Shown here: positions 8,396-46,461 of the stretch, one piece after another
How positions within the stretch are numbered: position 1 is the stretch's first letter
How the letters are laid out: every line of letters begins with the position of its first letter
From: Nitrospira sp.
Lineage (GTDB): Bacteria; Nitrospirota; Nitrospiria; Nitrospirales; Nitrospiraceae
DNA length: 48,269 nt
Assembly: GCA_030692565.1 (NCBI GenBank)
Contig: JAUYAO010000016.1
Span: forward strand, 1-48,269
Direction of reading: 5' to 3'
Translations under genes and position numbers: made by a program
The notes under the pieces: model-generated
Database searches by the model: none
The model's input: only the letters and a program-made list of their open reading frames with translations
Told to the model about the DNA's origin: nothing

Positions 8396-9340
8396 ATGGC
8401 GACCCCGCAACACCCTACGGCGATTCTCCTGATGGCGATGGGAGGACCCGACTCCCTCGACAACGTTGAGCCCTTCTTGCTGGATGTCCGTGGCGGGCGT
8501 CCGACCCCTCCCGAACTCGTCGAAGAAATCCGCGAACGCTATCGCGCCACCGGTGGGAAGTCGTCGGCAGTCGGCATTACGCAAGAGGTCGCAAAGAAAC
8601 TTGAACACCGATTGAATGCATCTGGAGGCGCACGGTATCGGGTGTATGTAGGTTTGCGGCATTGGCATCCCTTCATCAAGGAGACCTATGCCGAGTTGCT
8701 CGGCGAGGCTCCGGAGCAGGTCATCGGCCTCTGCATGGCGCCGCAACAGTCGTCGTTGAGCACCGGGGCCTACCGGAAAAAGGTGGAAGAGGCACGTTCC
8801 GCACTGCAGAGCACCTGCGCCGTCAGCTATGTGGGAAGCTGGAACCGGCATCCGCAACTGATTGCGGCGATCGTTGAAAATATCCGGCAGGGGCTGCTGA
8901 GATTTTCCGCGGACATCCGGAACCAGGTTCCGATTCTGTTTACGGCCCACAGTCTGCCGGAGCGGATCGTAGCCATGAAAGATCCCTATCCCGATGAGGT
9001 CAAAGGCACGGTCGATGCCATCACGGCTTGCCTCGGATCCCAGCCGACGCGGTTTGCCTACCAGAGTCAGGGGCGATCCAGTGAGCCGTGGCTGGGCCCG
9101 ACCGTGGAGTCTGCGCTGGAGGCGTTACATTGCGAAGGACCTCGGCAGGTGCTCGTAGCGCCGATCGGCTTCATTTGCGATCATGTGGAAACGTTGTTCG
9201 ATATCGACATTGAATTGAAGCAGTTGGCGGCGAAGAGAGGCATGCAATTAGAACGGATGTCCATGCTCAACGCCGATCCGGCACTGATTGAAACCTTAGT
9301 GTCGGTGATCGATGCCCACCAATCGTCTCAGGCACAGTAA
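8396..9340 (+). CDS. hemH: Ferrochelatase
   Basis: 314 residues from the ATG at 8396; GAGGAG at 8386-8391 favours this over the in-frame ATG at 8381. Motifs: LLMAMGGPDSLDNVEPFL at the N-terminus, catalytic-His signature LFTAHSLPERIV (about residues 178-189), and GFICDHVETLFDID near the C-terminus with the conserved HxETL. Inserts Fe2+ into the porphyrin. Ends 4 bases before hemG. Confidence 0.96.
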   Translation: MATPQHPTAILLMAMGGPDSLDNVEPFLLDVRGGRPTPPELVEEIRERYRATGGKSSAVGITQEVAKKLEHRLNASGGARYRVYVGLRHWHPFIKETYAELLGEAPEQVIGLCMAPQQSSLSTGAYRKKVEEARSALQSTCAVSYVGSWNRHPQLIAAIVENIRQGLLRFSADIRNQVPILFTAHSLPERIVAMKDPYPDEVKGTVDAITACLGSQPTRFAYQSQGRSSEPWLGPTVESALEALHCEGPRQVLVAPIGFICDHVETLFDIDIELKQLAAKRGMQLERMSMLNADPALIETLVSVIDAHQSSQAQ

Positions 9341-9343
9341 TTC

Positions 9344-10813
9344 GTGAGCACTCCTCGCACAGTCGTCATCGTCGGCGGCGGCATCTCGGGGCTGGCCACG
9401 GCGTTTTCTCTTCAGGAGCAAGCGGCTGCAGCCGGACAGCATATCCGCTGCATGGTGTTGGAGGCCGGGCCATCCTGGGGCGGCAAGATCGTGACGCATC
9501 GAATCGGCGACTTGACGACCGAAGCCGGGCCGGACTCCTTCCTCTCGCAAAAGCAGGCCGGGCTGGAGTTATGCCGGAAGCTGGGCCTGACCGATCAACT
9601 GATCAATACCAACGAGACCGCCAAGCGTGCGTTTGTTCTCTCGCGCGGGCGATTGCATGAATTGCCCGAGGGGCTCATCACCTTTGTGCCGAAGCAGTTG
9701 GGGCCGTTTCTCCGGAGCGGCCTCCTGAGTTGGACCGGACTGGCGCGCATGGGGCTGGACGTGGTGGTCCCGCGCGGTCCCGCACAAGGGGATGAATCGC
9801 TCGCATCATTTTTCCGGCGGCGATTCGGATCGCAAGCGTTCGAGCGAGTGTTAGAGCCGCTCATGGCCGGGATCTATGCCGGCGATGCGGATCAGATGAG
9901 TGTGAAAGCCACCTTCCCTCGATTCGTCGAGCTGGAGCAGGAATACGGCAGCATCATTCGCGGTATGATGGCCGCCAAGAAGAAGCAGCCGCCGGCTCCT
10001 GCAGGCGGACCTAAACGCACCATGTTCGTCAGTTTGCGGAACGGGCTGGGCGATCTGGTGACGGCCTTAACGGCGCGTCTCGCACAGCAGGGAGTGGAGT
10101 TGCGCACGGGCTGTCAGGTCGAGGCGTTGCGCGTGCGATCTCATGAACCGGGCCGCTGGATGTACGACCTCATTCTCAATAATGGGTCGGCGCTTTCGGC
10201 GGAGGCGCTGGTGTTGGCGACGCCCGCGTACGTGTCCGCCGAGCTGCTTCGTCCCTTGACGCCGATTGCCGGCGGGCTCTTGGAGATGATTCCCTATGCA
10301 TCGACGGCGACCGTTGCCGTGGCGTTTCCCGCTCAGGCGGTTGCGGGTGCGGTGGAAGGGTTTGGATTCATCGTGCCGCGCGCGGAGGCGAGAGATCTGA
10401 TTGCGGCGACCTGGACATCGCTGAAGTGGCCTCATCGGGCGCCGGCGGACCAAGTTCTGGCGCGTTGCTACGTCGGCGGGGTGGGGCGTGAAGCCATTCT
10501 TCAGCTGAGCGACGACCAATTGGTCGCGAAGATCCGGGCGGATTTGGCCGCCTTGTGCGGCATTAACGCGATGCCAACCTATGTCGAAGTGAATCGTTGG
10601 TGGAAAGCCATGCCGCAATACACGCTCGGGCATCTTGATCGTCTGACCCAACTTGATGCAGCATTGAGCCGGTACGGAGGCTTAGTGCTTACTGGCGCAG
10701 GATATCGTGGCGTGGGGATTCCTGACTGTATCCGCGATGGAGCAGTCGCAGCAGAAAAAGTGCTAGGGTATCTCTTCAAGCCCCGTCACGCTGCTTCGTC
10801 CGGCCGGAGCTGA
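9344..10813 (+). CDS. hemG: Protoporphyrinogen oxidase, FAD-dependent (HemY type)
   Basis: 489 residues starting with GTG. The N-terminal dinucleotide-binding motif VVIVGGGISGLATAFSLQ binds FAD, and the flavin-contacting LEAGPSWGGKI and TEAGPDSFL follow. The C-terminal LTGAGYRGVGIPDCIRDG is the FAD-closing motif of the oxygen-dependent HemY/PPOX family. Oxidises protoporphyrinogen IX (or coproporphyrinogen III, in the coproporphyrin branch). Three bases separate it from hemH, so the genes are coupled. Symbol usage varies (hemG/hemY). Confidence 0.93.
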   Translation: MSTPRTVVIVGGGISGLATAFSLQEQAAAAGQHIRCMVLEAGPSWGGKIVTHRIGDLTTEAGPDSFLSQKQAGLELCRKLGLTDQLINTNETAKRAFVLSRGRLHELPEGLITFVPKQLGPFLRSGLLSWTGLARMGLDVVVPRGPAQGDESLASFFRRRFGSQAFERVLEPLMAGIYAGDADQMSVKATFPRFVELEQEYGSIIRGMMAAKKKQPPAPAGGPKRTMFVSLRNGLGDLVTALTARLAQQGVELRTGCQVEALRVRSHEPGRWMYDLILNNGSALSAEALVLATPAYVSAELLRPLTPIAGGLLEMIPYASTATVAVAFPAQAVAGAVEGFGFIVPRAEARDLIAATWTSLKWPHRAPADQVLARCYVGGVGREAILQLSDDQLVAKIRADLAALCGINAMPTYVEVNRWWKAMPQYTLGHLDRLTQLDAALSRYGGLVLTGAGYRGVGIPDCIRDGAVAAEKVLGYLFKPRHAASSGRS

Positions 10814-28669: not shown

Positions 28670-28833
28670 TCTAATTCCCTCCAGGGGAGAGGCCGGAGAG
28701 AGTCGGAGGCCGGTACTTTTAGCAAAGAAGGTACTCGGAGGGCAGTTGAAGGGTATTCATAGTCGGTTGTTTCATCGGTGTGTTTCAACAGTCCGCCCAT
28801 GGAAGAGGCGGTCATAACAGGGGGAGGCCGTGT

Positions 28834-31800
28834 ATGAGGGTTTTTCAACTTCAATCTCAGCGTCAGCGGCGGTGTAGCCGCCTGTCGTTGATGCTGCACA
28901 GCGTGTTGCTGACGGGCAGCCTGGTGGTTGCACCAGGGCTGTTTGCGGCAGGGCCTGGTGAACCGTCGCATGACGGTCACGCGACTCCGGTCGCGATGCC
29001 GGGTTGGACGCAACAGCTCAAGGGCCAGACGGTGGTGGAAAACGCCATCGAGGGTCGTGCCGGTAATGCAGAGAAGATGGAGATGCAGCACCATCGTTTG
29101 ATGGAGAAGCTGGGGAGCCAGGCGAAGAAAGATGCGCAGGCGACCCCGGCGTCCGGTGCATTCAACGACATGTCGATGATGCACCAGTACATGGGACAGG
29201 ACGGCAGCAGCTTCCTGCTCATGTCGGATGGATCGAAGGGCGAGCCCGTCATGACGTCCGGTGGGAAGTGCCCGGCCGGTGCGCCCACCAAGCAGTACGA
29301 TGTCTCGATGATCAACATCGAGGTCACGTTAAACCGCTGGCTCGATTTCTATCCCGGCTATATGTATGCGCTGACCCAGGATCTCGGCAAGGTTCGCGGC
29401 GAGGAAGCCAAGAACAAAGCGGCTCGTGAAAAGGACGGGTTTGATCCGGGCGCGGTCACGACGGGCCTGCAGGGTGACGCGATTCAGCCGCTGGTGCTTC
29501 GCGCGAACCAGGGCGATTGCGTCAAGATGACTCTCCGCAACCAGATGGAGAGCGAGGATGGCAGTCTGTTCATCAGCGCCTCCAGTATGATCGTGAGCGC
29601 CACCGGGAAGCCGGCGACGACGACCAATCCGGAGTCGATCGTAGCGCCGGGCAAGAGCCAGGAATTCGAATGGTACATCCATCCGCAGATGCAGGAAGGG
29701 GTGCGCCAATTCCATTCCTACAGCCATGACCGTGAGTTGACGGTGCTCGGTCTCTTCGGCGCCTTTATCGTGGAGCCGAAGGGGTCGAAGTATCTCGATT
29801 CAATCGGTAGCGGCCCTGACAAGGAAGTCGCGAGTGGTTGGCAGGTGAACATCGATAACGGATCCGGACCGGACTTCCGCGAGTTCGTGATCTTCTATCA
29901 CGAAATCGGCGACGAGGCGTTCCGGCCGCTGAACAAGAAGGGTGACTTTTTGCCGCAGCGCGATCCGTTGACGGATGCGTATCGACCGGGCGGTCGTGCG
30001 CTGAATTATCGCAGCGAGCCGTTCGGCATCGATGAAATGCACCTCCAGCACGAGTATTTCGGCTTCGAGGATGAGTCGATGGCCTATAGCGGCTATACGT
30101 TCGGCGATCCGCCGACCACGGTTGCCCGCGGGTATCTGGGCGAGCCGGTGAAGTGGCGGGTCGTGCACGGTGGATCGGAAGTGTTCCATTCCCACCATCC
30201 CCATAGCGGAACCATCCGCTGGCAGCGTAGCCCTGGCACCGAGCCTAATAACATGTGGGCCATGGGTCAGGATGGTCCGGTGAAGTACCCGGTCGTCCGG
30301 ACGAAGTCCGACCGTGTCGACGTGGAAGTCATCGGTCCGTCCGAAGCGTTGGACCTGGAGCCGGAATGCGGCGGCGGCGGCTGTCAGCATCTGGCCGGCG
30401 AATTCCTCTATCACTGCCACGTCGCGCACCATTATGTGGCGGGGATGTGGGGGTACGGCCGGTTCTATAACACGTTGCAAGTCGGCGCGGCGCATACCGA
30501 CACGATGCCGGACCTGCAGGAATTGCCGGACCGGAAAGGCCGGATGAGGCTCGGCGTGTCGTCCGACAAATTGATCGGGACGACCGTCGATTGGTTCGGG
30601 AAGACCTTCAAGATCGTCGACAAGAACGAGAAGACCAACTGGAAGTCCGACCCGATCATCGTGAGCGTCAAGGATTGGGTGGAGATGTTCGTTCCAGCTC
30701 AGGGCAAGCCGGGCCATACGGACGACGAAAAGGGCCAGATCATGGCCTATGATGCGACCGTGTGGGACTGGAAGTGGAACGGCAACGTGGCCGTCGGTGA
30801 GCGGGAAAGTACAGCGAAATATCCAAAGTATCCCGCCGCAGCCAAGTGGGATGACAGCACGAGGCCTGCAATCCTGTTCGATCCGACGACAGGGAAGATG
30901 GCCTGGCCGTTGCTGAAGCCGCACTTCGGCAAGCGCAATCCGTTCTCCGCGAACCACAGTGGTGCGCCCTGGCTGGAGCCGATCCACCAGGATGCCAACG
31001 GTGAGCGGACGTCCGAACCGGCACAGCCCGGTGAGCAGGGACGTTGGAGTCTCTGCCCGGTCAATGCGAACCGGAAGTTCTATAACATTCACTTTGTCCG
31101 CATGCCGATCACCCTCGCCAAGAAGCAAGGAAAAGAGCCGGCCATGGTGGACAAGGATGGTCTGATCTATCTGCTCCACGAAGAAGAGCGGTTGACCAGA
31201 GCCAACGACGATCTCAAGCTCCCGGCGGTCATTCGCGCCAACGTGTATGACTGTGTGGACTTGGTTCTCACCAGTGAGTGGGACGACGACGACTACACGA
31301 ACTTCCAGTCGTCCAAGATCAATATCCATCCCCACTTCTTCCAGTTCGATACAGGGAACTCGGACGGTGTGATCTCCGGGATGGAGTATGAAATGTCCGT
31401 GCGCCCCTTCACGATGTGGGGGAAGAAAACGAAGCACGGATTGCCTGCACCGATGGTTGCCAAGCTCGTGGGCGAGGCAAAGGCCGGCGCCACCTCCGTG
31501 AAGATCCAGATGGCGCCGGGAGCGGCGCTGTTCCACCCCAACACCGAGTTGATGGTGGGTATGGATTGCTTGGAGAAGGGCAATGATGCCACAGCGTCGC
31601 TGCCGCGGGACAAGAGCTGTTCCGAAGTCGTCAGGATCAAGGACATCAAGGGCGATCAGGTGACGTTCTTCAAGCCGTTAAAGAACAATCATCCGGCGAA
31701 CGACCTCGTGTCGCCGGAGTTTGTGCGCTATCGGTGGTGGGTGGATGTGGATTTGGGGACGGTGTTCTGGCATGACCACGCGTTCGGCGCGACGACCTGG

Positions 31801-33774
31801 CCGCATGGCGGGTTCGGCGTGACGATCGTGGAGCCGTTCGGGTCCACCTATCACGATCCGAAGAACGGCAAGCTGGTGTGGAGCGGTCCGATCGCGGACA
31901 TTCACAGCAACGAGCCGATCGGCGCCGGTGTGAGCGGCAGCTTCCGTGAGTTGATGGTCTCCATCCACGACACGGTGCCGCACACGGTCAACGTCATCGA
32001 AGCCGGCAATCCTCCGGGACAGCCGATCGAAGTGGCGTTGGAAGCCGGGAAGACGGTGTCGTTCCAGATGCCCGATAAGATCTTGAACGCGCCGAATAAG
32101 TACATCAACGGCGGGACGCATACGACCGGCAGCGGTTTCAACTTCCGCGCGGCCCCGTTTGCGCAGCGCCTCTCGAACAATCCGGATACGTCAAAGCTGT
32201 TCAGCAGTGCGATCCATGGGGATCCGGGTACACCGCTCCTGCGGGCGTACACGGGCGACACCATGGTGTTCCGTCTGTTGCACCAGCTGATGAACGAATC
32301 GCACGTCTGGACGATCGCCGGCCACACCTTCCTCACGGAACGGTATGCGGCGGATGCCAACCGGAAGAACTCGATTCACGTCGGGATCGCCGAGCGGTAT
32401 GACCTCGTGACCAAGGCGGGCGGATTCCAGGGTATGCCCGGTGACTACATCCACTTCAACGGCAGAACGTCGCACTTCGCCGAAGGTGGATGGGGCATCG
32501 TGCGTGTGCTCGATAAGGAAACGGCGGATCTGAAGCCGCTCCCCAAGGGGACCAATCCCCTCGGGATCCCAGCCACCCCCAGCTCAGTCTGTCCGGCTGA
32601 CGCTCCGGTGAAGAGCTTCAACGTCGTGGCGTTGGATCGCCCGATGAAGCTCCATCCGAAGGCGCCGGATGCGATCGAGGTGGACTTCGAGCGGAAGATT
32701 GAAATGACCATGCCGGAAGGCAAGATCTTCGCGCTCGAAGCGGAAGCCACGACGGTAGCCAGCGGGGCAACACCGAATCCGCTGACGCTGCGCGTCAACC
32801 TTGGTGACTGCATCAAGGTGAATCTGAAGAACAAGATGAAGGCGAGCCGGGCGTCGTTCTTTGCGCCAGGATTGGCCTTTGATCCGAAAGACAGCCAGGG
32901 CCTGAACGTCGGGAACAACCCCGGCGATCAAACCATCGCTCCTGGCGAAAGCCGCGGCTATACCTACTACGCGCATCCTTCCAATAAGGAAACGACGTCG
33001 CTGGTGTGGGACGGTGGGAACGTTGTCGTCAATCCGCGTAACGGATTGTACGGCGCCATCGTCGTCGGTCCGCGCGGGTCGCAGTATCGCGACCCGGTGA
33101 CCGGTGCCGACAGCTCTCAGAAGAATTCATGGAGAGCGGACGTCATCGTCGATGCCAGCTTGCCTGAAAACGTTGGCAAGCGGAACTATCGCGATGTCGC
33201 CCTGTTCTTCCAGGATGAAGACAACATCATCGGAACCGCGTTCATGCCCTATGTGCAGAACGTCGCCGGTTTGACGTCGGTAAATTACCGCGCCGAACCG
33301 TACAAGTTCCGCGAAGAGCAAGGCTGCTCGCTCGGGAAGATCTTCCAGCCCTGTGCGGTGGATAAGCCCGAGGATCCCATCACGCCTCTGATCGAGGCGC
33401 ATGCGGGTGATGCCGTTCGCATCCATGTCATCGGTGCGAACAGCGAGCAGAACGGGATGTTTGCGGTCGAAGGCCATGAGTGGCCGATCGAGCCGTACAT
33501 GCCCGGTGCCGACCAGATCAGTGTGGTGGAGTATGCCGGATCGGAGACCCTCGATGTGTTCCTCCGTGGCGGTGCGGGCGGCCCGTATCGTCAGGTGGGA
33601 GACTTCGTGTGGTCCAACGCACGGCTGCCCTACACGCAGTCAGGACAGTGGGGCTACCTCCGTGTCTTGCCGGCCGGCGATTCACGGATCCAACCGCTCG
33701 GTACCCACGGGATGGGCGCCAAGCAGGCGGAAGTGGAGCCCGCAGTGAAAGCCATTCCGACCGCGATGAAGTAA
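28834..33774 (+). CDS. Giant exported multicopper oxidase (MofA/MnxG-like size and layout)
   Basis: 1646 residues from ATG 28834 (GGGGGAGG upstream). Signal peptide about 1-38 (LMLHSVLLTGSLVVAPGLFA). Six or more cupredoxin domains. Copper motifs: HSHHPHSG (about 453-460); HCHVAHHYVAGM (527-538), giving H-C-H-x3-H-x4-M for type 1 and type 3 copper; NIHPHFFQF (about 830); FWHDHAFGATTWPHGG (about 977-992). Together they supply the HxH pairs of a trinuclear centre. Domains 5-7 lack obvious ligands and may be structural. Far larger than laccases (about 500) but close to the Mn(II)-oxidising MofA (about 1660). Controlled by a -24/-12 promoter and ended by a strong terminator. Electron donor not known: Mn(II), Fe(II), organic or other. 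Confidence 0.88.
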   Translation: MRVFQLQSQRQRRCSRLSLMLHSVLLTGSLVVAPGLFAAGPGEPSHDGHATPVAMPGWTQQLKGQTVVENAIEGRAGNAEKMEMQHHRLMEKLGSQAKKDAQATPASGAFNDMSMMHQYMGQDGSSFLLMSDGSKGEPVMTSGGKCPAGAPTKQYDVSMINIEVTLNRWLDFYPGYMYALTQDLGKVRGEEAKNKAAREKDGFDPGAVTTGLQGDAIQPLVLRANQGDCVKMTLRNQMESEDGSLFISASSMIVSATGKPATTTNPESIVAPGKSQEFEWYIHPQMQEGVRQFHSYSHDRELTVLGLFGAFIVEPKGSKYLDSIGSGPDKEVASGWQVNIDNGSGPDFREFVIFYHEIGDEAFRPLNKKGDFLPQRDPLTDAYRPGGRALNYRSEPFGIDEMHLQHEYFGFEDESMAYSGYTFGDPPTTVARGYLGEPVKWRVVHGGSEVFHSHHPHSGTIRWQRSPGTEPNNMWAMGQDGPVKYPVVRTKSDRVDVEVIGPSEALDLEPECGGGGCQHLAGEFLYHCHVAHHYVAGMWGYGRFYNTLQVGAAHTDTMPDLQELPDRKGRMRLGVSSDKLIGTTVDWFGKTFKIVDKNEKTNWKSDPIIVSVKDWVEMFVPAQGKPGHTDDEKGQIMAYDATVWDWKWNGNVAVGERESTAKYPKYPAAAKWDDSTRPAILFDPTTGKMAWPLLKPHFGKRNPFSANHSGAPWLEPIHQDANGERTSEPAQPGEQGRWSLCPVNANRKFYNIHFVRMPITLAKKQGKEPAMVDKDGLIYLLHEEERLTRANDDLKLPAVIRANVYDCVDLVLTSEWDDDDYTNFQSSKINIHPHFFQFDTGNSDGVISGMEYEMSVRPFTMWGKKTKHGLPAPMVAKLVGEAKAGATSVKIQMAPGAALFHPNTELMVGMDCLEKGNDATASLPRDKSCSEVVRIKDIKGDQVTFFKPLKNNHPANDLVSPEFVRYRWWVDVDLGTVFWHDHAFGATTWPHGGFGVTIVEPFGSTYHDPKNGKLVWSGPIADIHSNEPIGAGVSGSFRELMVSIHDTVPHTVNVIEAGNPPGQPIEVALEAGKTVSFQMPDKILNAPNKYINGGTHTTGSGFNFRAAPFAQRLSNNPDTSKLFSSAIHGDPGTPLLRAYTGDTMVFRLLHQLMNESHVWTIAGHTFLTERYAADANRKNSIHVGIAERYDLVTKAGGFQGMPGDYIHFNGRTSHFAEGGWGIVRVLDKETADLKPLPKGTNPLGIPATPSSVCPADAPVKSFNVVALDRPMKLHPKAPDAIEVDFERKIEMTMPEGKIFALEAEATTVASGATPNPLTLRVNLGDCIKVNLKNKMKASRASFFAPGLAFDPKDSQGLNVGNNPGDQTIAPGESRGYTYYAHPSNKETTSLVWDGGNVVVNPRNGLYGAIVVGPRGSQYRDPVTGADSSQKNSWRADVIVDASLPENVGKRNYRDVALFFQDEDNIIGTAFMPYVQNVAGLTSVNYRAEPYKFREEQGCSLGKIFQPCAVDKPEDPITPLIEAHAGDAVRIHVIGANSEQNGMFAVEGHEWPIEPYMPGADQISVVEYAGSETLDVFLRGGAGGPYRQVGDFVWSNARLPYTQSGQWGYLRVLPAGDSRIQPLGTHGMGAKQAEVEPAVKAIPTAMK

Positions 33775-33957: not shown

Positions 33958-34899
33958 ATGATCAGGACACAATTCATAGCAGCGATACTGGCGCTGGCAC
34001 TGGGAAGTCCCGCCTTGGCCTATGAAGAAATCACGGTTTCTGATGGAGGCACCATCAAGGGGGCGGTGACGCTTGAGGGGGCAGTTCCCAAGCCCAAGGG
34101 TTACAACTTGACTACGTTGCCTGACCCGTTCTATTGCGGGCGCATTTCGGACGGACAGGGCTGGCGGATCTTGCAACCATTCCAAGTCGGCCCGGCGGGC
34201 GAGTTTCGCGAGGTCGTGGTCTATCTGGAAGGGATCGAGAAAGGCAAGCCATTCAATGGAGGAGGCGTGCCGCAAATCGAAGCCAAAGATTGCCTGTTCC
34301 TGCCGTTCACCACGGTCGTGCGGGACGATCAATCGGTGACCGTGGTCAACATGGATCCGGTCATGCATGATATCCAGGCCTACGAAACGTCGAACTTGGG
34401 CGCGCGCGTCCTCTTCAACGTGCCGCTGCCGATGAATCCGCAACATCCGCGCAACTTTAAGGATCGCACCGAAGCCGGGATGTATCACAAACACATGGCC
34501 GGCCCGCCGATGAAAGAACTGGTGAAGCTCAGCAAGAACCGCCGGATCTTTGTGATGCAATGTGGGTTCCACGCCTATATGGAAAGCTGGGGAGTGGCTG
34601 TTACGAACCCGTACTTTGCCAAGACAGACGAGCAGGGGCGGTTCACGATCACGGATGTGCCACCGGGCACCTACAAGCTGGTGGTATGGCATCCCTATGT
34701 CAGGACCGCGACCGAGCAGATGGTCACCATCGGCCCGAAGGCCACTGTCGAGACCACGATCGGGGTTCCGGCTCCGACGGGAAGGCTCTACGCCAACGAG
34801 GTGTTAGAGCATGCGTACACGCGCTATAACGTGACCGAGGAAACCAAGAAAGAGATTGATCCGTTGGTCCACAAGCAGGACCACATGCAGGATCACTGA
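33958..34899 (+). CDS. Exported blue-copper (amicyanin-spaced) protein with carboxypeptidase-regulatory-like domain
   Basis: 313 residues. Signal peptide about 1-21 (FIAAILALALGSPALA). A cupredoxin region with a His in MDPVMHDIQ (about 137) and MQCGFHAYMESWG, where C202-x2-H205-x2-M208 has the ligand spacing of amicyanin. Then KTDEQGRFTITDVPPGTYKLVVWHP (about 220-244), a carboxypeptidase-regulatory-like beta sandwich. C-terminus is His-rich (VHKQDHMQDH). Probable periplasmic electron carrier. Position right after the giant oxidase suggests it passes electrons to or from it or one of the later redox proteins. Databases often call such proteins methylamine-utilisation-like, but methylamine use is not shown. 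Confidence 0.8.
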   Translation: MIRTQFIAAILALALGSPALAYEEITVSDGGTIKGAVTLEGAVPKPKGYNLTTLPDPFYCGRISDGQGWRILQPFQVGPAGEFREVVVYLEGIEKGKPFNGGGVPQIEAKDCLFLPFTTVVRDDQSVTVVNMDPVMHDIQAYETSNLGARVLFNVPLPMNPQHPRNFKDRTEAGMYHKHMAGPPMKELVKLSKNRRIFVMQCGFHAYMESWGVAVTNPYFAKTDEQGRFTITDVPPGTYKLVVWHPYVRTATEQMVTIGPKATVETTIGVPAPTGRLYANEVLEHAYTRYNVTEETKKEIDPLVHKQDHMQDH

Positions 34900-34918: not shown

Positions 34919-35032
34919 GGGGCTAGAGCCTAGGGGCGAGAGGGTAGACAATGAGAGGCAAAAGGAGGAGCGGTTTGTTGTACGCGGGTGTTCTTTCCTG
35001 CCTCTTGCCCCTTGCCTCTTGCCTCGTAGCCC
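34919..35032. repeat. Hairpin of GGGGCGAGAGG-type words overlapping a gene start
   Basis: Left arm 34919-34943 pairs imperfectly with the pyrimidine-rich 35001-35032 (cctcttgccccttgcctc...). The right arm lies inside the next gene and encodes the hydrophobic core of its signal peptide. Confidence 0.55.
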
Positions 35033-35907
35033 GGAGCGTAGCTCACGCCAATCATGAATCCTCGGCACAGCCTCCGCTCTGGACGCCGCTGGACGAGGTC
35101 GAGTACATGGCCACAATGGACGTGCCGGGCGGCATGGTCACGGTGCCGGTCGGTGAATTCTTGATGGGCAGCGATCCCCGGAAGGATCCGGCGGCCGGGC
35201 CGCAAGAACAACCGCTGCACCGCGTCACGCTCAATGCATTTGAGATCGATCGCTACGAAGTCTCGAACGTGGAGTATCTGAGATTTGTGCTGTCAACCGG
35301 CGCGAGCTGGCCGCAGTTCTGGCGGGCCAAGCCGTTCCCCGACAAGATGGCCACCCATCCGGTGATCAATGTCAGCTGGCAGGAGGCCGATGCCTATTGC
35401 CGCTGGGCGGGCAAGCGCCTGCCCACCGAAGCGGAGTGGGAGAAGGCGGCCCGGGGCTCCGATGGCCGGATGTTTCCCTGGGGCGATGAACCGGCCGGCT
35501 GGATCAAGAGTAACATCGCGCATTCCGGGTCGAAGCGGGGCGCCAAGTATCCGCCGTTGGCCAACATCAATCGGTATGACAAAGGGGTGAGTCCCTACGG
35601 GGTCTACCAGCTGGCCGGCAACGTCAGTGAGTGGGTGTCGGATTGGTTCGATCCGGACTATTACCGCTCGGGGATTAACGAAAATCCGCAAGGTCCGAAG
35701 ACGGGGGAGTTGAAAGTGTTTCGCGGCGGCTCATGGAACGAAGATCCGGAAGTAGCGCGGTCCGCCGGGCGCAACGGCGGAGAGCCGACAAGGAAGAGTT
35801 ACCTCACAGGATTTCGCTGTGCACGATCAGAAAGACCGTCAATAGTCACTCGTCAATCGTCAACCGGTGAGGATGTCGTCAAGGGCCTCACCGTCCGGAA
35901 CGATTGA
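34951..35907 (+). CDS. FGE/SUMF1-fold exported protein lacking the catalytic cysteines (1)
   Basis: 318 residues. Signal peptide MRGKRRSGLLYAGVLSCLLP...VAHA (about 1-32); TTG 34975 behind AGGAGG is an alternative start. The fold of formylglycine-generating-enzyme proteins is clear: GGMVTVPVGEFLMGSDPRKD, HRVTLNAFEIDRYEVSNVEYL, HPVINVSWQEADAYCRWAGKRLPTEAEWEKAARG, MFPWGDE, VSPYGVYQLAGNVSEWVSDWFD and KVFRGGSW...GFRCARS. The Cys pair that performs oxidation in true FGE (RGGSWxCxxxxC) is replaced here, so it is not a sulfatase activator. NirV, next to copper nitrite reductase, is a comparable relative. Its last 23 residues come from the next hairpin. Confidence 0.85.
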   Translation: MRGKRRSGLLYAGVLSCLLPLASCLVARSVAHANHESSAQPPLWTPLDEVEYMATMDVPGGMVTVPVGEFLMGSDPRKDPAAGPQEQPLHRVTLNAFEIDRYEVSNVEYLRFVLSTGASWPQFWRAKPFPDKMATHPVINVSWQEADAYCRWAGKRLPTEAEWEKAARGSDGRMFPWGDEPAGWIKSNIAHSGSKRGAKYPPLANINRYDKGVSPYGVYQLAGNVSEWVSDWFDPDYYRSGINENPQGPKTGELKVFRGGSWNEDPEVARSAGRNGGEPTRKSYLTGFRCARSERPSIVTRQSSTGEDVVKGLTVRND

Positions 35908-35929
35908 CGTATGACGCATGACGATTGAC
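35838..35929. repeat. 26-bp hairpin of GTCAATCGTC words overlapping a gene end
   Basis: Arms 35838-35863 and 35904-35929 match at 21 of 26 positions, extended by CCGGTGAGG/CCTCACCG. The left arm is the coding end of the preceding FGE-like gene. Confidence 0.65.
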
Positions 35930-35953
35930 ACTTCAATAACGAGGAGGCCGAGT

Positions 35954-36904
35954 ATGGAACGGAAGGAAGCGGAGCATTTCAGAAAGTGGGAGTGGGTGAT
36001 CAACGCGGTGTTGATTACGGCTGCACTCTTGGTCATGGCGAAGGTGGCCTGGGGGTTGGATACTCAAGACATCGTCATCGAGTGGACTGAGGCGGGCAAG
36101 AAAATCGCTGTTGATCGGGTGGCGAATTGGAAGTCCAAGGATGAAATGGTCCTGGTGCCGGCCGGTGAATTTATCATGGGCAGCGATAAAAAGACGGATC
36201 GGCTTGCCTATCGCGGGGAAATGCCGCAGCGCCGGGTTTATCTGGATGCGTTCGAAATCGGCAAGTACGAAGTGACGGCGCTGGAATATCTGAAGTTTAT
36301 CCTGGCGACCGATCGGAAGCCGCAATTGGACTGGCGGTATGACGGTGGGAATTTCCAGGAGACCATGGCGCACCATCCCATCATGCATGTGTCCTGGTAT
36401 GACGCGGATGCCTACTGCAAGTGGGCGGGGCGGCGGTTGCCGACGGAAGCGGAATGGGAGAAGGCGGCGCGCGGCACCGATGGGCGGCTTTTCCCCTGGG
36501 GACCGGAGCTTGCCGGACCCACGAGGGCAAACTTTGGACGGACCGGGCTGTCCGGTCCTGTGCGCGATCGTCCGGAGCGGTTGCTGCTCTATCCCCCGAT
36601 CATTTCTGTCGATCGGTACGACAAAGCCGTCAGCCCGTATGGGCTCTATCAAACGATCGGGAACGTGTCCGAATGGGTGTCCGACTGGTACGACAAGGAT
36701 TATTACGCGTCCGCGCCGGATCGCAATCCGAAAGGCTCGGAGACGGGCACGCAGAAGGCCTTCCGCGGAGGCGGGTGGATGGACAGCACGACGACGATGC
36801 GCGTTGCCATGCGGAACGGGACCGATCCCAACACCAAGATCAATTGGATGGGATTTCGTTGCGCGCAGTCGGCGCAGCCGTCAAGCGGTGACCGTCAGTC
36901 GTGA
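35954..36904 (+). CDS. FGE/SUMF1-fold protein, membrane-anchored, lacking catalytic cysteines (2)
   Basis: 316 residues from ATG 35954 (AGGAGG upstream; ATG 35918 is in the hairpin). One N-terminal membrane segment, VINAVLITAALLVMAKVAWGL (about 15-35), without a clear cleavage site. Then MVLVPAGEFIMGSDKKTD, RRVYLDAFEIGKYEVTALEYLKFIL, HPIMHVSWYDADAYCKWAGRRLPTEAEWEKAARG, LFPWG, AVSPYGLYQTIGNVSEWVSDWYD and KAFRGGGW...GFRCAQS. As in the paralogue, the FGE Cys pair is absent. Two adjacent divergent copies may form a heterodimer. Role probably structural, assembly or ligand binding. Confidence 0.85.
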   Translation: MERKEAEHFRKWEWVINAVLITAALLVMAKVAWGLDTQDIVIEWTEAGKKIAVDRVANWKSKDEMVLVPAGEFIMGSDKKTDRLAYRGEMPQRRVYLDAFEIGKYEVTALEYLKFILATDRKPQLDWRYDGGNFQETMAHHPIMHVSWYDADAYCKWAGRRLPTEAEWEKAARGTDGRLFPWGPELAGPTRANFGRTGLSGPVRDRPERLLLYPPIISVDRYDKAVSPYGLYQTIGNVSEWVSDWYDKDYYASAPDRNPKGSETGTQKAFRGGGWMDSTTTMRVAMRNGTDPNTKINWMGFRCAQSAQPSSGDRQS

Positions 36905-36971: not shown

Positions 36972-37030
36972 CTGTCAGTGACGGTTGGCGCATGACGAGT
37001 CGCGAAGGGCTATCAAGGAGGGCTAGTAAG

Positions 37031-38065
37031 ATGATTCGATTCTCCGCTCTGCTACGGTCTCGCCCAGGCGTCATGTCGGCGCCGGGCGCCTGTGTCCTCG
37101 CTCTCGCTCTGACGGGCACTGCGCTGGCCGGTGGCACGCACAGCGCGCATGAGGTGCCCCAACTGCTGGGGCAGACGAGGACGGCGGTCACGTATGAGGG
37201 CAACCGTGTGACGGTGACATTCGGGCCGGTGGACTTGCCGTCCGGACACGATGGTGACCTGGCGGCCAGCCTGCCGAAACACGTCTTTACGTTGCCCGAC
37301 GATATGACGATGGTCGGATATCAATCGAGGGTGTTTACGAAGGACGGGGTGGATCTGCCGCGCCAGTATCTTCACCACATTCTGCTCATCAACCAGGATA
37401 AAGACAGTGTCTCGTGCCCAGGTGAGCCGTTGTTTTTCGCCGGGGCCGGTCTGGAGATGACGGAGGCGCGATTTCCCGCCGGGTATGGCGTAAAGATCGC
37501 CAAAGCCCAGAAACTCATGGCCATCGTCGCGTTCTATCACGGCGTGCCTCCGACGAAGGATGTGATGGCCAGCTTCACGATGGAGATGGCGCCCAAGGGG
37601 ACCGTACTACAAGCCTTGGATGTCTACCAGGTCGGCGTGAACACGGTCTGTTACAGCCAATTCCCGAAACGGCGCGCGGACGAAACCGATGAGGGGATCG
37701 AAGTCAAACCCGGCGTGCAGGTGGACAAGGCGCCGCTCACGTTCAGCATGGATGGCTGCGTGAAGTTTGCCTACCCGCACGGGCACGACCAAGTGTTGCT
37801 GATCGCGCTGGAAAACAAGACGGCGCAACGGACGCTGCTTCGAACGGTGCCCGACGTGGGACCGGATGGAGCCTTCTTGTCGTTCCTGCCGCATCAGATT
37901 TATCACAGCGCCCAGGGGTTCGGCGTGAATCGCCGCGATGCGTACGAGGTGGTGATGGTGCATCACCGGCCTCTTCACGATCCCCAGCCCAACCATGGGA
38001 TGGGGAACTATCTGCTGTATATGACGCCCGGCGAGTGTCAGGCTCAGGCGACGATGAGTCCCTGA
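37031..38065 (+). CDS. PHM/DBM-like copper type II monooxygenase, exported
   Basis: 344 residues from ATG 37031 (AAGGAGG at 37015). Signal peptide about 1-34 (ACVLALALTGTALAGG). Ligand pattern of peptidylglycine/dopamine monooxygenases: adjacent H115-H116 in YLHHILLI and H170 in AFYHGVP for one copper; H250 and H252 in YPHGHDQV and M324 in HGMGNYLLYM for the other. In rat PHM these are H107, H108, H172, H242, H244 and M314; order and spacing agree closely. Several cysteines could form disulfides. Such enzymes hydroxylate C-H bonds using O2 and an electron donor, in the periplasm here. Substrate unknown. Part of a run with the FGE-like and 2OG oxygenase genes. Confidence 0.72.
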   Translation: MIRFSALLRSRPGVMSAPGACVLALALTGTALAGGTHSAHEVPQLLGQTRTAVTYEGNRVTVTFGPVDLPSGHDGDLAASLPKHVFTLPDDMTMVGYQSRVFTKDGVDLPRQYLHHILLINQDKDSVSCPGEPLFFAGAGLEMTEARFPAGYGVKIAKAQKLMAIVAFYHGVPPTKDVMASFTMEMAPKGTVLQALDVYQVGVNTVCYSQFPKRRADETDEGIEVKPGVQVDKAPLTFSMDGCVKFAYPHGHDQVLLIALENKTAQRTLLRTVPDVGPDGAFLSFLPHQIYHSAQGFGVNRRDAYEVVMVHHRPLHDPQPNHGMGNYLLYMTPGECQAQATMSP

Positions 38066-38115: not shown

Positions 38116-38877
38116 ATGATGCGGAATCTCAAGCTCAGCATCGAACGTGAGGTCATACGAGCGACCGAAGGGGTGGATCTTGAGGAAATAGGCCGTTGCT
38201 ACCGCGATCAGAATGAGTTTGTTGTCCTGGAGCGCTTTCTCACGCTCACGCAGCCCGTGGTTGATCAGTTGCTCGACGAGGTGGATCTGCTGACGCCCGA
38301 CGTCAATCGGAATTATGTTCCCGGACACAAGAAGGGAGGCAGCGTCAGTTTCTACACGCTCCTCGACAAGGCGTCGGCCATCCTCTTCCTCTATCGCTCG
38401 CCGGCCCTGCTCACATTCCTGAGCCGGCTCGTGGAGGCGCCCCTCCTGCTCTGTCCCGAAGACGATCCCCATTCGTGCGCCCTGTACTATTACCAGCAGC
38501 CCGGCGATCACATCGGCTTTCATTACGATACCTCCTACTACAAAGGGAAACGATATACGGTGTTGATCGGGTTGGTTGAGCGATCGGAACGCTGCCGGCT
38601 GGTGGCCCGCGTCCGGAAGAGCGGAGAGACCGAAGAAATCAGGGAAACACGGATTCCCATGGACCCTGGGACGGCCGTGCTCTTCAACGGCGACAAACTC
38701 TGGCATGCCGTCACGCCCCTCGGAAAGGGCGAGGAACGGGTGGTGCTCACGCTGCAGTACGTGACGAATCAGGAGATGGGACCGTTCAAGAAGACGTTTT
38801 CCAATCTCAAGGATGCGTTTGCCTACTTTGGACCCGCCGCGCTGCTCCGGTGGAATCCGTCGAAGAGGAAAGGATAA
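38116..38877 (+). CDS. 2OG-Fe(II) oxygenase, BesD/HalD-like scaffold
   Basis: About 253 residues; ATG 38116 or 38119 (GGGAG just upstream) is preferred to GTG 38035, which overlaps the previous gene by 31 bases. Iron triad in HIGFHYDTSYYKG (H-x-D) and the distal His in LWHAVTPLGKGEERVVLTLQY, whose Arg would bind 2-oxoglutarate. The HYD...GKxYTVLIGL and PLxxGxxRVVL context resembles BesD/HalD enzymes, but Asp is present where halogenases have Gly, so hydroxylation is expected. No signal peptide: cytoplasmic, unlike its neighbours. Substrate unknown. Confidence 0.7.
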   Translation: MMRNLKLSIEREVIRATEGVDLEEIGRCYRDQNEFVVLERFLTLTQPVVDQLLDEVDLLTPDVNRNYVPGHKKGGSVSFYTLLDKASAILFLYRSPALLTFLSRLVEAPLLLCPEDDPHSCALYYYQQPGDHIGFHYDTSYYKGKRYTVLIGLVERSERCRLVARVRKSGETEEIRETRIPMDPGTAVLFNGDKLWHAVTPLGKGEERVVLTLQYVTNQEMGPFKKTFSNLKDAFAYFGPAALLRWNPSKRKG

Positions 38878-38880
38878 GTC

Positions 38881-39381
38881 ATGCGTTTGGCTCTGCGGAT
38901 TCCCCAGTCCAAGTCCGAGACATTGCCTCTGGTGCTCAGCCTGGCCCGTTCAGCTCCGATGTTTCAAATGGAGACGGAGGGCCGGTCGCCGGTATACCTG
39001 GCGACCTTTCCGGATCTTTCTCTGTCGTTCGATCTCGTGGAGCGACTGATCGGCGCGGCGGCCGAGCTTCCGGGTGTCCAGGTGTCGATCAATGAACGAC
39101 CTGTCGAAGGTCTGACGAAGTTTTTGAGCGCGCTGAGGTGTTACCGCGAAAGCCTGGCTGAACTCGACCCTCAGGCCTATTGCGCGCGGCAGGCCGCGAA
39201 GATCGGCGATGCGGGCAGTTGCCCGGACCGCGCCTGTGTCTCTCATTGCCAGTTCATCTGTGCGCGCTGCCTGCAAGTCGTTCGGGAGATCGGCGTCCCA
39301 TCCATTCGCGCTCAATTGAAGGCGATTGCGATACACGCCGAAGTGGAGTGGTGCCCGAATCTCAGGCTGCCTGAGGGATGA
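38881..39381 (+). CDS. Cys-rich hypothetical protein, 166 aa
   Basis: Starts 4 bases after the oxygenase stop, so the two are coupled. The N-terminal half is a beta-alpha domain (SAPMFQMETEGRSPVYLATFPDLSLSFDLVERL). The C-terminal half concentrates eight cysteines: RCYRE, YCARQ, GSCPDRACVSHCQFICARC and EWCPN. That could bind a [4Fe-4S] cluster or zinc. Family not recognised. Proximity suggests it serves the oxygenase. Confidence 0.6.
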   Translation: MRLALRIPQSKSETLPLVLSLARSAPMFQMETEGRSPVYLATFPDLSLSFDLVERLIGAAAELPGVQVSINERPVEGLTKFLSALRCYRESLAELDPQAYCARQAAKIGDAGSCPDRACVSHCQFICARCLQVVREIGVPSIRAQLKAIAIHAEVEWCPNLRLPEG

Positions 39382-43492: not shown

Positions 43493-44224
43493 ATGCTCGC
43501 CGGTTTCTGGTACATTGCCGCCGAATCTCGGCTGGTTCGACCAGGCCATCTGACGGCCACAGCGCTGGCGAATCAAGCGATCGTCCTGGTCCGCAACCGT
43601 TCAGGAACGGCGCAGGCGCTGGAGGATCGGTGTTCTCATCGGGGAGTCCCTCTCTCGTCCGGCAGGTTGGAGGGTGAATCTATCCAGTGTCCGTATCATG
43701 GGTGGCGATTTTCGACTTCGGGGGCCTGTCTGGAGGCGCCGGTCCTAGGGGCTGGCGCCGCGCCGAAGTCGGCCTGTGTCCGATCCTATCCGGTGCAGGA
43801 ACAAGATGGATGGATCTGGGTCTATGTGGGGAACGAACGATGTCCGATACCGGTGGCCCCGCCGCCGACGTTTCCAGTGCCTGCGGACGGCAGTCCGGTG
43901 TCTATGTTGAGGATGTCCATGCCGGTCAAGAGCAGGATGGAGTTCGCGGTCGACAACTTCATTGATCCGGCCCACGTCCCCTTCGTTCACACCGGCATCT
44001 TTCGCCGGCGGAAGGCCCAGAGGTTGAAGGAGAAAGAATTTATACGGTTGCCGCAGGGCTTTCGAACCGTGTCCACCAATGTGCTCCTGCCGAACACGAT
44101 TGTCTTTCGCGCCGTGACTCCGACGCTCGCGCCGGCGAAGACCACGGTGGATTTCCTTATGCCGGGGATTCATCTGGAAACGTTCGAGGTGGGCGCGCGC
44201 TGGGGGGGGCGATCATGGTCGTGA
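43493..44224 (+). CDS. Rieske non-haem iron oxygenase, N-terminal part (frame interrupted)
   Basis: 243 residues in this frame. Rieske [2Fe-2S] ligands in CSHRGVPLSSGRLEG...CPYHGW (about residues 46-69). The mononuclear iron region is EFAVDNFIDPAHVPFVHTG (about 150-168) with the H-x4-H pattern. The frame then runs through GIHLETFEVGARW into a G8 tract (44202-44209) and stops 15 bases later; the remaining 105 residues continue in the -1 frame. With 9 (or 6) G residues one intact protein of about 346 residues results. Related to VanA/PobA-type phthalate-family oxygenases. Substrate unknown. Confidence 0.85.
   Translation: MLAGFWYIAAESRLVRPGHLTATALANQAIVLVRNRSGTAQALEDRCSHRGVPLSSGRLEGESIQCPYHGWRFSTSGACLEAPVLGAGAAPKSACVRSYPVQEQDGWIWVYVGNERCPIPVAPPPTFPVPADGSPVSMLRMSMPVKSRMEFAVDNFIDPAHVPFVHTGIFRRRKAQRLKEKEFIRLPQGFRTVSTNVLLPNTIVFRAVTPTLAPAKTTVDFLMPGIHLETFEVGARWGGRSWS
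44202..44209 (+). repeat. G8 homopolymer at the Rieske frameshift
   Basis: Eight G in a row exactly where the reading frame must shift by -1. A slippery G-GGG-GGG context, phase variation or a sequencing/assembly error are all compatible. Confidence 0.9.
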
Positions 44225-44532
44225 TCACGCCGCTCACGGAACACTCCACGCGCTTGGACTTCACGATGGGGTGGAATTTTCTCCGCGGGGTGTTTCCGCT
44301 CGTCTGGCTCGCGCGGCTGATAGGCGGGATCGTCCTTCGGCAGGACCGCTGTATTATTGAACTGCAGGAGCAGGGGCATTGTCACAAGAGCGCGATGAAT
44401 TTGAGCCTGGAGTCTGACAGACTGGCCGTCTGGTACCGCCAGTTGCAGAAGTATCATCTGGACAAATCGGCCGGCGTGCCCAACCCGCAGCATCCGGTTC
44501 CGGAGAAGGTCACGCTCAGATGGGTCACCTGA
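44215..44532 (+). pseudogene. Rieske oxygenase, C-terminal part in the -1 frame
   Basis: 105 residues, VVITPLTEHSTRLDFTMGWNFLRG..., ending LAVWYRQLQKYH and PVPEKVTLRWVT. This is the normal end of the catalytic domain, colinear with the N-terminal part and overlapping it by 10 bases. No ribosome site of its own is evident before the ATG 44215, so it is treated as a displaced piece of the same gene. Confidence 0.75.
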
Positions 44533-45070: not shown

Positions 45071-45201
45071 CCATTGCAGATGCCAGGGCCGGTCAGTTGC
45101 TCTCATTCAGTAATCCTTCTAAGCTAGACAACAGAGTGCGAGGTGGCGAGCGAGGAATTGTTCTCGTTCGCGTCACGCGAGGCAGAAGGAGGCCAACAAT
45201 C

Positions 45202-46461
45202 ATGAGACAGATAAGCACTACAAGGCGGACATGGTGTTTCTCCACGATCGTTGGTGCGTGGGTTGCTCTGGGGGTGACGCTTGGCGGCGGCGCGCCCGCC
45301 TGGGCCTATGAAGTGTGGTTGACCGATCAGTCCGATACCGGGAAGGAAAGCGGCGGCTATCTCCACATCTATGATGGGGCGCAGCTCGCGGCGAATCCTG
45401 CCTCGGCGAAGCCGACGATGACGATCGACTTTGCCGGCGACATCGGCAAGTTCTGCGAGGAGGCGACCAAGAAGGCCGTGCGTCGCCCGCACATGCTGTT
45501 TTTCAATAAGAATCAGGACCATGCCATTATTTCTTTCCTGAGCGGCCACGTCCTGTTCATAGACGCAGCGACGAAGAAGCCGGATGCCTGTCTGTCCATG
45601 GGGAAGAACGTCCATGCCGCCTGGCCGACGCCGGATCAGAAGATGGCGATTGCCGCGAACATTGCAGAGAAGAAATTCATCCGGATCTGGACGGACTATG
45701 CCGCGCATAAGTTCAGCTTCGATCCTGAGAAAGATGTTGTGAACCTGGTCGCGTTCGAAGGGGGCGAGCGTCCGGATACATCGCCGATCTGCCCGATCAC
45801 CGAATCGTCGAGCCGCTATGCGTTTGTGACGCTGCGTGGCGGCGGGTTGCTGGTGTTTGACGTGACGGTGACCCCGATGAAGGCGGTGGCGATGCTGGAC
45901 AATAACCAGGTTCATCCGGCCGGCTGCGGCGGAGTGCAAGTCGGCGACACGATGTATATCAATTCCGGAGGCGGGTGGCCGGTGGCGCCGCTCTCCTACG
46001 ATGTGTATGCGCTCGATATCTCGGGCCTGCCCGCCAAAGTATCAGCCAAGCTGGTCTCGCAGCGGGACGACAAGTTTGCCGATTCGCACGGCATGATCGG
46101 CGTCGGCCGCTATGTCTGGAGTGCGGATCGGGCCGGCAACAACGTTGAGATCATCGACACGCTCAGTAACTTCTCGGTAGGTTCAATCGACCTGGTGAGC
46201 GATGCGAACCAGGATCCGGCTCCCGATTTGATGGATGTCGCGCCGGATGGACAGTACGTCTTCGTCGGTCTTCGCGGCCCCAATCCATTAACCGGGAACG
46301 ATAAGGTCGCGCACAACGCCAAGGGGACCATCCCCGGTGTCGGTGTGATCCATGTGGATGCCGACGGCAAAGTCGGACATTACAAGGGACAGGCGGTCAT
46401 TACGAATAAGAAAGACGACAAAGAAACCGCCGATACTCACGGAATCGCGGTGAGAAAATAA
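45202..46461 (+). CDS. Exported beta-propeller protein (methylamine dehydrogenase heavy chain/YVTN-like)
   Basis: 419 residues from ATG 45202 (AAGGAGG upstream). Signal peptide about 1-36 (WVALGVTLGGGAPAWA). Repeated blades with the YVTN-like cadence: HMLFFNKNQDHAIISFLSGHVLFIDAAT, RYAFVTLRGGGLLVFDV, YVWSADRAGNNVEIIDTLS and DVAPDGQYVFVGLRGPNP, about seven in all. Overall like the heavy chain of quinoprotein amine dehydrogenases, but no light-chain gene with its Trp-derived cofactor is nearby, so enzymatic activity is not implied. Possibly a binding or scaffold propeller. Ends at a strong hairpin. Confidence 0.75.
   Translation: MRQISTTRRTWCFSTIVGAWVALGVTLGGGAPAWAYEVWLTDQSDTGKESGGYLHIYDGAQLAANPASAKPTMTIDFAGDIGKFCEEATKKAVRRPHMLFFNKNQDHAIISFLSGHVLFIDAATKKPDACLSMGKNVHAAWPTPDQKMAIAANIAEKKFIRIWTDYAAHKFSFDPEKDVVNLVAFEGGERPDTSPICPITESSSRYAFVTLRGGGLLVFDVTVTPMKAVAMLDNNQVHPAGCGGVQVGDTMYINSGGGWPVAPLSYDVYALDISGLPAKVSAKLVSQRDDKFADSHGMIGVGRYVWSADRAGNNVEIIDTLSNFSVGSIDLVSDANQDPAPDLMDVAPDGQYVFVGLRGPNPLTGNDKVAHNAKGTIPGVGVIHVDADGKVGHYKGQAVITNKKDDKETADTHGIAVRK

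Follow-up and report, generated by a model that had tools for sequence, protein, structure and literature searches.

A protein of 344 residues, encoded at positions 37031-38065 on the forward strand, is probably a PHM/DBM-type dicopper monooxygenase that works in the periplasm. Its gene lies in the window, by which we mean the whole 48,269-nucleotide stretch of a Nitrospira genome analysed here. The first-pass annotation had proposed such an enzyme. That proposal gained from the predicted fold and from the invariance of the candidate copper ligands, and found no counterpart in profile searches. Judged from the predicted fold and the ligand register, the protein most likely works like PHM and DBM. 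In animals, PHM makes hormones and dopamine hydroxylase makes noradrenaline. We also lean, with less assurance, towards a wider reading in which the protein represents a bacterial family that had gone unrecognised until now: dicopper monooxygenases with the PHM/DBM fold, carried by nearly all Nitrospiraceae, which would link the neuro-hormone monooxygenases of animals to an old bacterial enzyme with a new substrate.

Gene product and candidate copper ligands

The window belongs to a genome of 4.17 Mb in 60 contigs, whose nearest named relatives are Nitrospira, nitrite-oxidising bacteria of soil and water. The start codon of the open frame is uncertain. An in-frame ATG precedes position 37031 at 36992, and a start at M15 (37073) would also be compatible with a signal peptide. 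On a sequence reading, the N-terminus resembles a signal peptide and the product is probably exported. Across 95 aligned copies, which include the window copy and some near-duplicates and leave out six short or split pieces from five loci, the cysteines C129, C207 and C243 occur in every copy and C336 in 93. Such near-invariance is consistent with an exported protein. Two further histidines, H73 and H312, are also present in all 95. Directly after the likely signal peptide, the alignment, the model and our reading of the sequence place a histidine motif at codons 37-40 (37139-37150, forward strand). H37 is kept in 95/95 copies, H40 in 86/95, and position 39 is histidine in 72/95 and alanine in the window copy. 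This motif, located in the low-confidence tail of the model, is possibly a copper-loading element.

The six residues named as ligands in the first-pass annotation are all found at those positions in the translation. Five of them, H115, H116, H250, H252 and M324, occur in 95 of 95 copies and H170 in 94; once rows more than 95% identical had been removed, the remaining 68 rows show no variation at any of the six. The ligands of PHM are given as H107, H108, H172, H242, H244 and M314 (PMC6123673), and a modelling paper on DBH lists H262, H263, H333, H412, H414 and M487 (PMC3197665). Accordingly matched on the forward strand are H115-H116 (37373-37378; PHM 107/108, DBH 262/263) and H170 (37538-37540; PHM 172, DBH 333) as predicted CuH ligands, and H250-G-H252 (37778-37786; PHM 242/244, DBH 412/414) and M324 (38000-38002; PHM 314, DBH 487) as predicted CuM ligands. 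The order and approximate spacing claimed for the six were borne out: the ligand groups are separated by 55, 80 and 72 residues here, against 65, 70 and 70 in PHM and 71, 79 and 73 in DBH. The DBH spacings of 79 (H333 to H412) and 73 (H414 to M487) are close to the 80 and 72 of the Nitrospira protein. When the mature sequence was shuffled 20,000 times, a loose PHM-like spacing pattern arose in 116 of the shuffles; counting only alignment positions with a conservation of 97% or more reduced this to 2 of 20,000. Both the CuH set (the HH pair and a third histidine) and the CuM set (HxH and methionine) are present in the sequence as predicted sites.

Predicted fold and register

An AlphaFold2 model built from 68 relatives of low diversity reached a pLDDT of 80.9 and a pTM of 0.78. 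This structure, a prediction only, is weak before residue 47, at residues 71-80 and at the very end. It comprises two jelly-roll domains in the arrangement of PHM. In a Foldseek search of the PDB, PHM and DBH entries filled the first 27 places (E 6.9e-10 to 4.9e-7), and the next match had an E of 3.0e-4. VIA-align placed residues 54-333 on residues 53-323 of PHM (6ala_C) with Z 17.0, an rmsd of 3.1 and 232 aligned residues. For DBH (4zel_A), residues 56-333 paired with 210-496 at Z 16.2, rmsd 3.2 and 239 aligned residues. PHM entry 5wja_D followed at Z 15.7, and the remaining PHM entries scored 12.4 to 14.5. The structure comparison with PHM that the first-pass annotation had suggested therefore came out PHM/DBH-like, with the next family at Z 8.8 or below.

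The ligand register was read from the alignment ends, assuming no gap over the 3 to 10 residues between an end and the nearby ligand. The C-terminal strand of the full model is offset by 10 from PHM and by 163 from DBH, which puts M324 on PHM M314 and DBH M487. The N-terminal end was addressed with a fragment beginning at residue 112, for which start offsets of 8 (PHM) and 147 (DBH) were fixed before prediction. This fragment was predicted at a pLDDT of 87.2, with Z values of 9.5 to 12.9 and the best other chain at 6.5. Its start offset was 8 in 25/25 PHM rows and 147 in the DBH row, so that residue 112 pairs with PHM 104 and DBH 259. The expected offsets having been observed, H115 and H116 fall on PHM 107/108 and DBH 262/263. 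The C-terminal register of the fragment was the same as in the full model, and that of M324 was thus obtained in two models. Two of the four ligand segments (H115-H116 and M324) consequently lie in the register of known ligands. H170 is placed by order, spacing and its position near the end of the modelled strand 162-168; H250 and H252 by order, spacing and their location at the end of strand 242-253. Strand 5 of PHM begins at residue 107 (PMC6123673), and the corresponding strand of the AlphaFold2 model begins at 114. Both of the best structural matches (6ala and chain A of 4zel) represent closed conformations as described in the same source (PMC6123673). The match to closed forms may be real or may reflect a habit of metal-free predictions.

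The best chain outside PHM and DBH was a PNGase, at Z 8.8. PNGase F and PHM have a double jelly-roll fold and Pfam clan CL0612 in common (PMC8812541), and for this reason the fold by itself does not prove the chemistry. It is conceivable that the Nitrospira protein is a double-jelly-roll protein that binds no metal, of the PNGase F or DUF2961 kind, whose histidines are kept for other reasons. The common fold and clan and the Z values of up to 8.8 for PNGase F and PNGase F-II are consistent with that explanation, which we nonetheless consider highly improbable. These structural matches are much weaker, PHM and DBH scoring about twice as high. PNGase F is not known to have copper sites. At both places where the register was tested, the invariant histidines and methionine coincide with copper ligands of PHM and DBH.

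The predicted likeness to PHM and DBH is accompanied by marked differences. Compared with rat PHM (1phm, 6ala), the protein agrees over 232 residues in its predicted two-domain fold, and has the same register of the HH pair and the methionine, a similarly spaced HxH pair and probable export; identity is only about 12%. Four cysteines are near-invariant in the Nitrospira family, against the ten that PHM presumably contains. Human DBH (4zel) agrees over 239 residues and in the register of H262/H263 and M487, with an identity of 10%. The additional domains that we take DBH to carry are missing from the Nitrospira protein.

Sequence searches

Sequence methods gave no link to PHM or DBM. With the Cu2_monooxygen N and C models (PF01082 and PF03712), individual scans of the 68 family members gave no match at E<=10 (0/68), a threshold at which the HMMER filters discard most matches above about 0.1. 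For the 37031-38065 protein itself, Pfam returned a single sub-threshold and unrelated match, and NCBIfam none. A PDB sequence search with the protein yielded one unrelated match (E 0.72) and no PHM; with the family profile it yielded no match. Comparison by hhalign of the family with a PHM and DBH profile gave local E values of 0.54 and 0.36 and a global E of 1, and was underpowered, with two sequences on one side. Under a family HMM covering residues 105 onward, PHM scored no better than its own shuffles: 521 of the 735 reported shuffles (1000 made) scored as high. For DBH, 625 of 1000 shuffles were reported and the true sequence was not. Searches of plasmids by tblastn with the protein and with a PHM fragment found no match at E 0.1. 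Among 148 Nitrospirota genomes, that of the window included, none matched PF03712; because the controls also gave 0/14, this search says nothing on absence.

These silent methods, together with the 0/68 result, mean that the profile test put forward in the first-pass annotation failed. The link to PHM by Pfam, phmmer or hhalign is lacking, and the motifs diverge as well. HHMxxFxC and HxFxxxxHTHxxG, which we assume to be the signature motifs of the PHM/DBM family, are not kept in the protein. Where PHM reads HHMLLFGC and HVFAYRVHTHHLG, presumably its own versions of these signatures, the Nitrospira protein has HHILLINQ and CVKFAYPHGHDQV. By strict membership, its sequence falls outside the known profile families.

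Proposed mechanism and substrate

In the proposed mechanism, each of the two jelly-roll domains would carry one copper, CuH held by H115, H116 and H170 and CuM by H250, H252 and M324. As in PHM, O2 would be bound and activated at CuM, the second electron would come from CuH, and a small substrate would be hydroxylated at a C-H or similar bond. The electron donor may be a periplasmic cupredoxin or a cytochrome. Export, copper binding, O2 chemistry, the donor and a substrate other than peptidyl-glycine are all features that we infer.

The substrate is most likely not a peptide. In PHM, we take R240 and Y318 to be the peptide-carboxylate residues and N316 to lie on the substrate side as well. The C-terminal register places PHM Y318 on L328 and N316 on N326, and R240 falls near Y248/P249, a placement that is approximate. 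In the model, the peptide-carboxylate residues thus appear to be lost, and the leucine at Y318 together with the position of R240 makes peptidyl-glycine an unlikely substrate.

Distribution and phylogeny

The family is near-universal in Nitrospiraceae. The gene is present in 42 of 59 genomes of relatives, including the window's own. By family, it occurs in 34/35 Nitrospiraceae (all of the window's genus), in 7/8 and 1/12 genomes of two further families (f2 and f3) and in 0/4 of a fourth. A sample spread evenly over the phylum, partly overlapping the first, contained 48 positive genomes among 198. Forty-six of these belong to the 47 Nitrospiraceae genomes, which span several genera; here the 130 genomes without a match were taken as lying outside Nitrospiraceae from a list ordered by kinship. 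Named carriers include Nitrospira moscoviensis and Ca. Nitrospira defluvii.

A scan of a genome collection, which reaches close relatives only, confirmed 85 loci, 80 of them listed. The listed loci carry the labels Nitrospira, Nitrospiraceae, Nitrospirae or Nitrospirota, except for two labelled 'uncultured Nitrosospira' (L035 and L075). L035 branches among Nitrospira in a maximum-likelihood tree of 68 rows, and L075 is outside the rows of that tree. Fifteen window-type rows (the window, the copies of five relatives and nine of the loci L021-L035, near-duplicates left out) lie on one side of a single branch with support 100/94. Five rows from loci of the other type branch nearer to this clade than the rest. 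The window's genome holds both types, the second copy being located on contig C33 with 67% identity.

A role in nitrite oxidation was considered and rejected. An NxrB-like protein was found in 10 of the 12 f3 genomes, nine of which are without the PHM-like gene. The name NxrB-like is our assumption, this protein being the only Fer4_11 match of the genome. This search covered the 59 relatives at a cut-off of 1e-100. It also missed the protein in 15/35 Nitrospiraceae and 3/8 f2 genomes, perhaps through assembly, and for that reason only the f3 contrast is used.

Previous reports and implications

In its table of copper proteins, a 2020 review enters PHM and DBM for eukaryotes alone (PMC7435645). 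A PHM domain is mentioned for the myxothiazol assembly line (PMC9396620), and a bacterial domain named PHM is therefore already in print. Open-licence literature combining Nitrospira with peptidylglycine or copper monooxygenase contained nothing on this protein, as far as titles and the starts of abstracts indicate, and the wider open-licence literature contained nothing on it among the matches listed. A transcriptome paper on N. moscoviensis uses locus tags to refer to conserved proteins whose function is unknown (PMC6606698). The text of a comparative study of Nitrospirales, an order that it describes as including nitrite oxidisers and complete ammonia oxidisers, contains neither 'copper' nor 'hypothetical' (PMC12342949).

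If the proposed activity is real, a major group of nitrifiers would gain an unsuspected periplasmic O2-activating activity, and organisms central to nitrification a new oxygenase. The two coppers of PHM lie about 11 A apart (PMC6123673), and the Nitrospira protein would offer a small bacterial model for electron sharing between two distant coppers. It would also bear on the origin of animal PHM and DBM.

Gene neighbourhoods and electron supply

In the window, the gene is surrounded on the forward strand by several genes for copper-type and oxygenase-like proteins. Upstream, 28780-33774 encodes a large multicopper oxidase of about 1630-1660 residues that is MnxG-like in part. The longest frame opens with GTG; the likelier start is the methionine at 28891, which precedes a signal-like stretch. 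The protein matches Pfam Cu-oxidase_3 (4.5e-13) and contains HxH and HCH motifs. Its partial NCBIfam match to the manganese oxidase MnxG, at 103 bits, falls well short of the curated cut-off (3100), and no claim of Mn oxidation is made. The gene at 33958-34899 encodes a cupredoxin-like protein with a CarboxypepD_reg-like domain, from Pfam, and a C-x2-H-x2-M motif (C202), from motif reading; copper is its presumed metal. A CopD-like match near the window copy stays below its cut-off.

Two tandem genes for FGE-sulfatase-domain proteins follow at 34951-35907 (Pfam 2.1e-60) and 35918-36904 (9.4e-59). Neither protein has a Cys pair near its C-terminal RGGSW/RGGGW motif. Such a pair is presumably the catalytic and copper site of true formylglycine-generating enzymes, and formylglycine chemistry was rejected for both because it is missing.

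Downstream, 38116-38877 encodes a HalD-like 2OG-Fe(II) oxygenase (Pfam HalD 3.9e-9), whose longest frame begins at 38035 and overlaps the PHM-like gene. Its HxD motif, a feature by which hydroxylases are distinguished from halogenases, is intact, so the protein looks like a hydroxylase and not a halogenase. It is accompanied at 38881-39381 by a Cys-rich protein of 166 residues with 0 Pfam families at E<=0.001.

Homologues of the window genes, and of these only, were sought at the named loci and counted above 60 bits; the queries for the multicopper oxidase, the 2OG oxygenase and an ORF near 45187 had approximate 5' ends. Among the 15 named window-type loci (L021-L035), homologues of the 2OG-Fe oxygenase and of the Cys-rich protein each occur at 14, and those of the multicopper oxidase and of the cupredoxin each at nine. 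Both FGE-domain genes lie with the PHM-like gene on the same strand at four. Several of these counts are lowered because contig ends cut the loci. At the other 65 named loci (L036-L100, some of them short), no homologue of the window's multicopper oxidase, cupredoxin, FGE-domain or 2OG genes was found. The window-type locus L028, over about 10 kb on each side, has neither a multicopper oxidase nor a cupredoxin homologue.

The first-pass annotation had suggested that the neighbouring copper oxidase and blue-copper protein could act as electron donor in place of ascorbate. The co-occurrence of the three genes in the window, with each homologue at 9/15 window-type loci, lends some weight to a monooxygenase supplied by these two proteins, and the finding of neither at the other 65 named loci (0/65) or at L028 counts against it. 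Multicopper oxidases normally take electrons rather than give them; the cupredoxin is the better candidate. We judge supply by the adjacent pair improbable. As the copper-oxidase setting belongs to one sub-clade only, it cannot explain the electron supply of the family.

The same neighbourhood bears on another alternative, namely that the protein keeps the PHM fold and copper sites, with a His motif added at the N-terminus, and serves as a periplasmic buffer, chaperone or oxidase instead of a monooxygenase. The His-rich segment with its invariant H37, the apparent lack of the PHM substrate-carboxylate residues and the proximity of the multicopper oxidase, the cupredoxin-like protein and the CopD-like match would all fit such a role. 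We regard it as unlikely, since the exact CuH (HH/H) and CuM (HxH/M) sets are kept, down to the weak methionine ligand, as catalysis would need and storage would not. In addition, the search around the other 65 named loci, by which copper genes unlike those of the window could be missed, found no oxidase or cupredoxin homologue.

The universal copy lies in a different setting. In the reference Ca. N. defluvii, a SnoaL-like protein (Pfam SnoaL_3, signal-like start) is encoded just 5' of the PHM-like gene; at locus L060, the SnoaL-like gene just upstream occupies 8975-9886. A homologue occurs somewhere in 60 of the 65 loci L036-L100, and the SnoaL-like protein is a candidate functional partner of this copy.

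Two further features were observed towards the end of the window. The first, at 43493-44532, is an SdmA-like Rieske oxygenase whose C-terminal domain is matched only at its beginning, over residues 2-38 of the 193 in VanA_C. An ORF at 44215-44532 overlaps it in another frame and may be the remainder of a frame-shifted gene. The second, at 45202-46461, encodes a protein of about 420 residues with a signal-like start and weak matches to the beta subunit of hydrazine synthase (E 7.6e-4) that stay well under the cut-off; it is probably a beta-propeller relative only.
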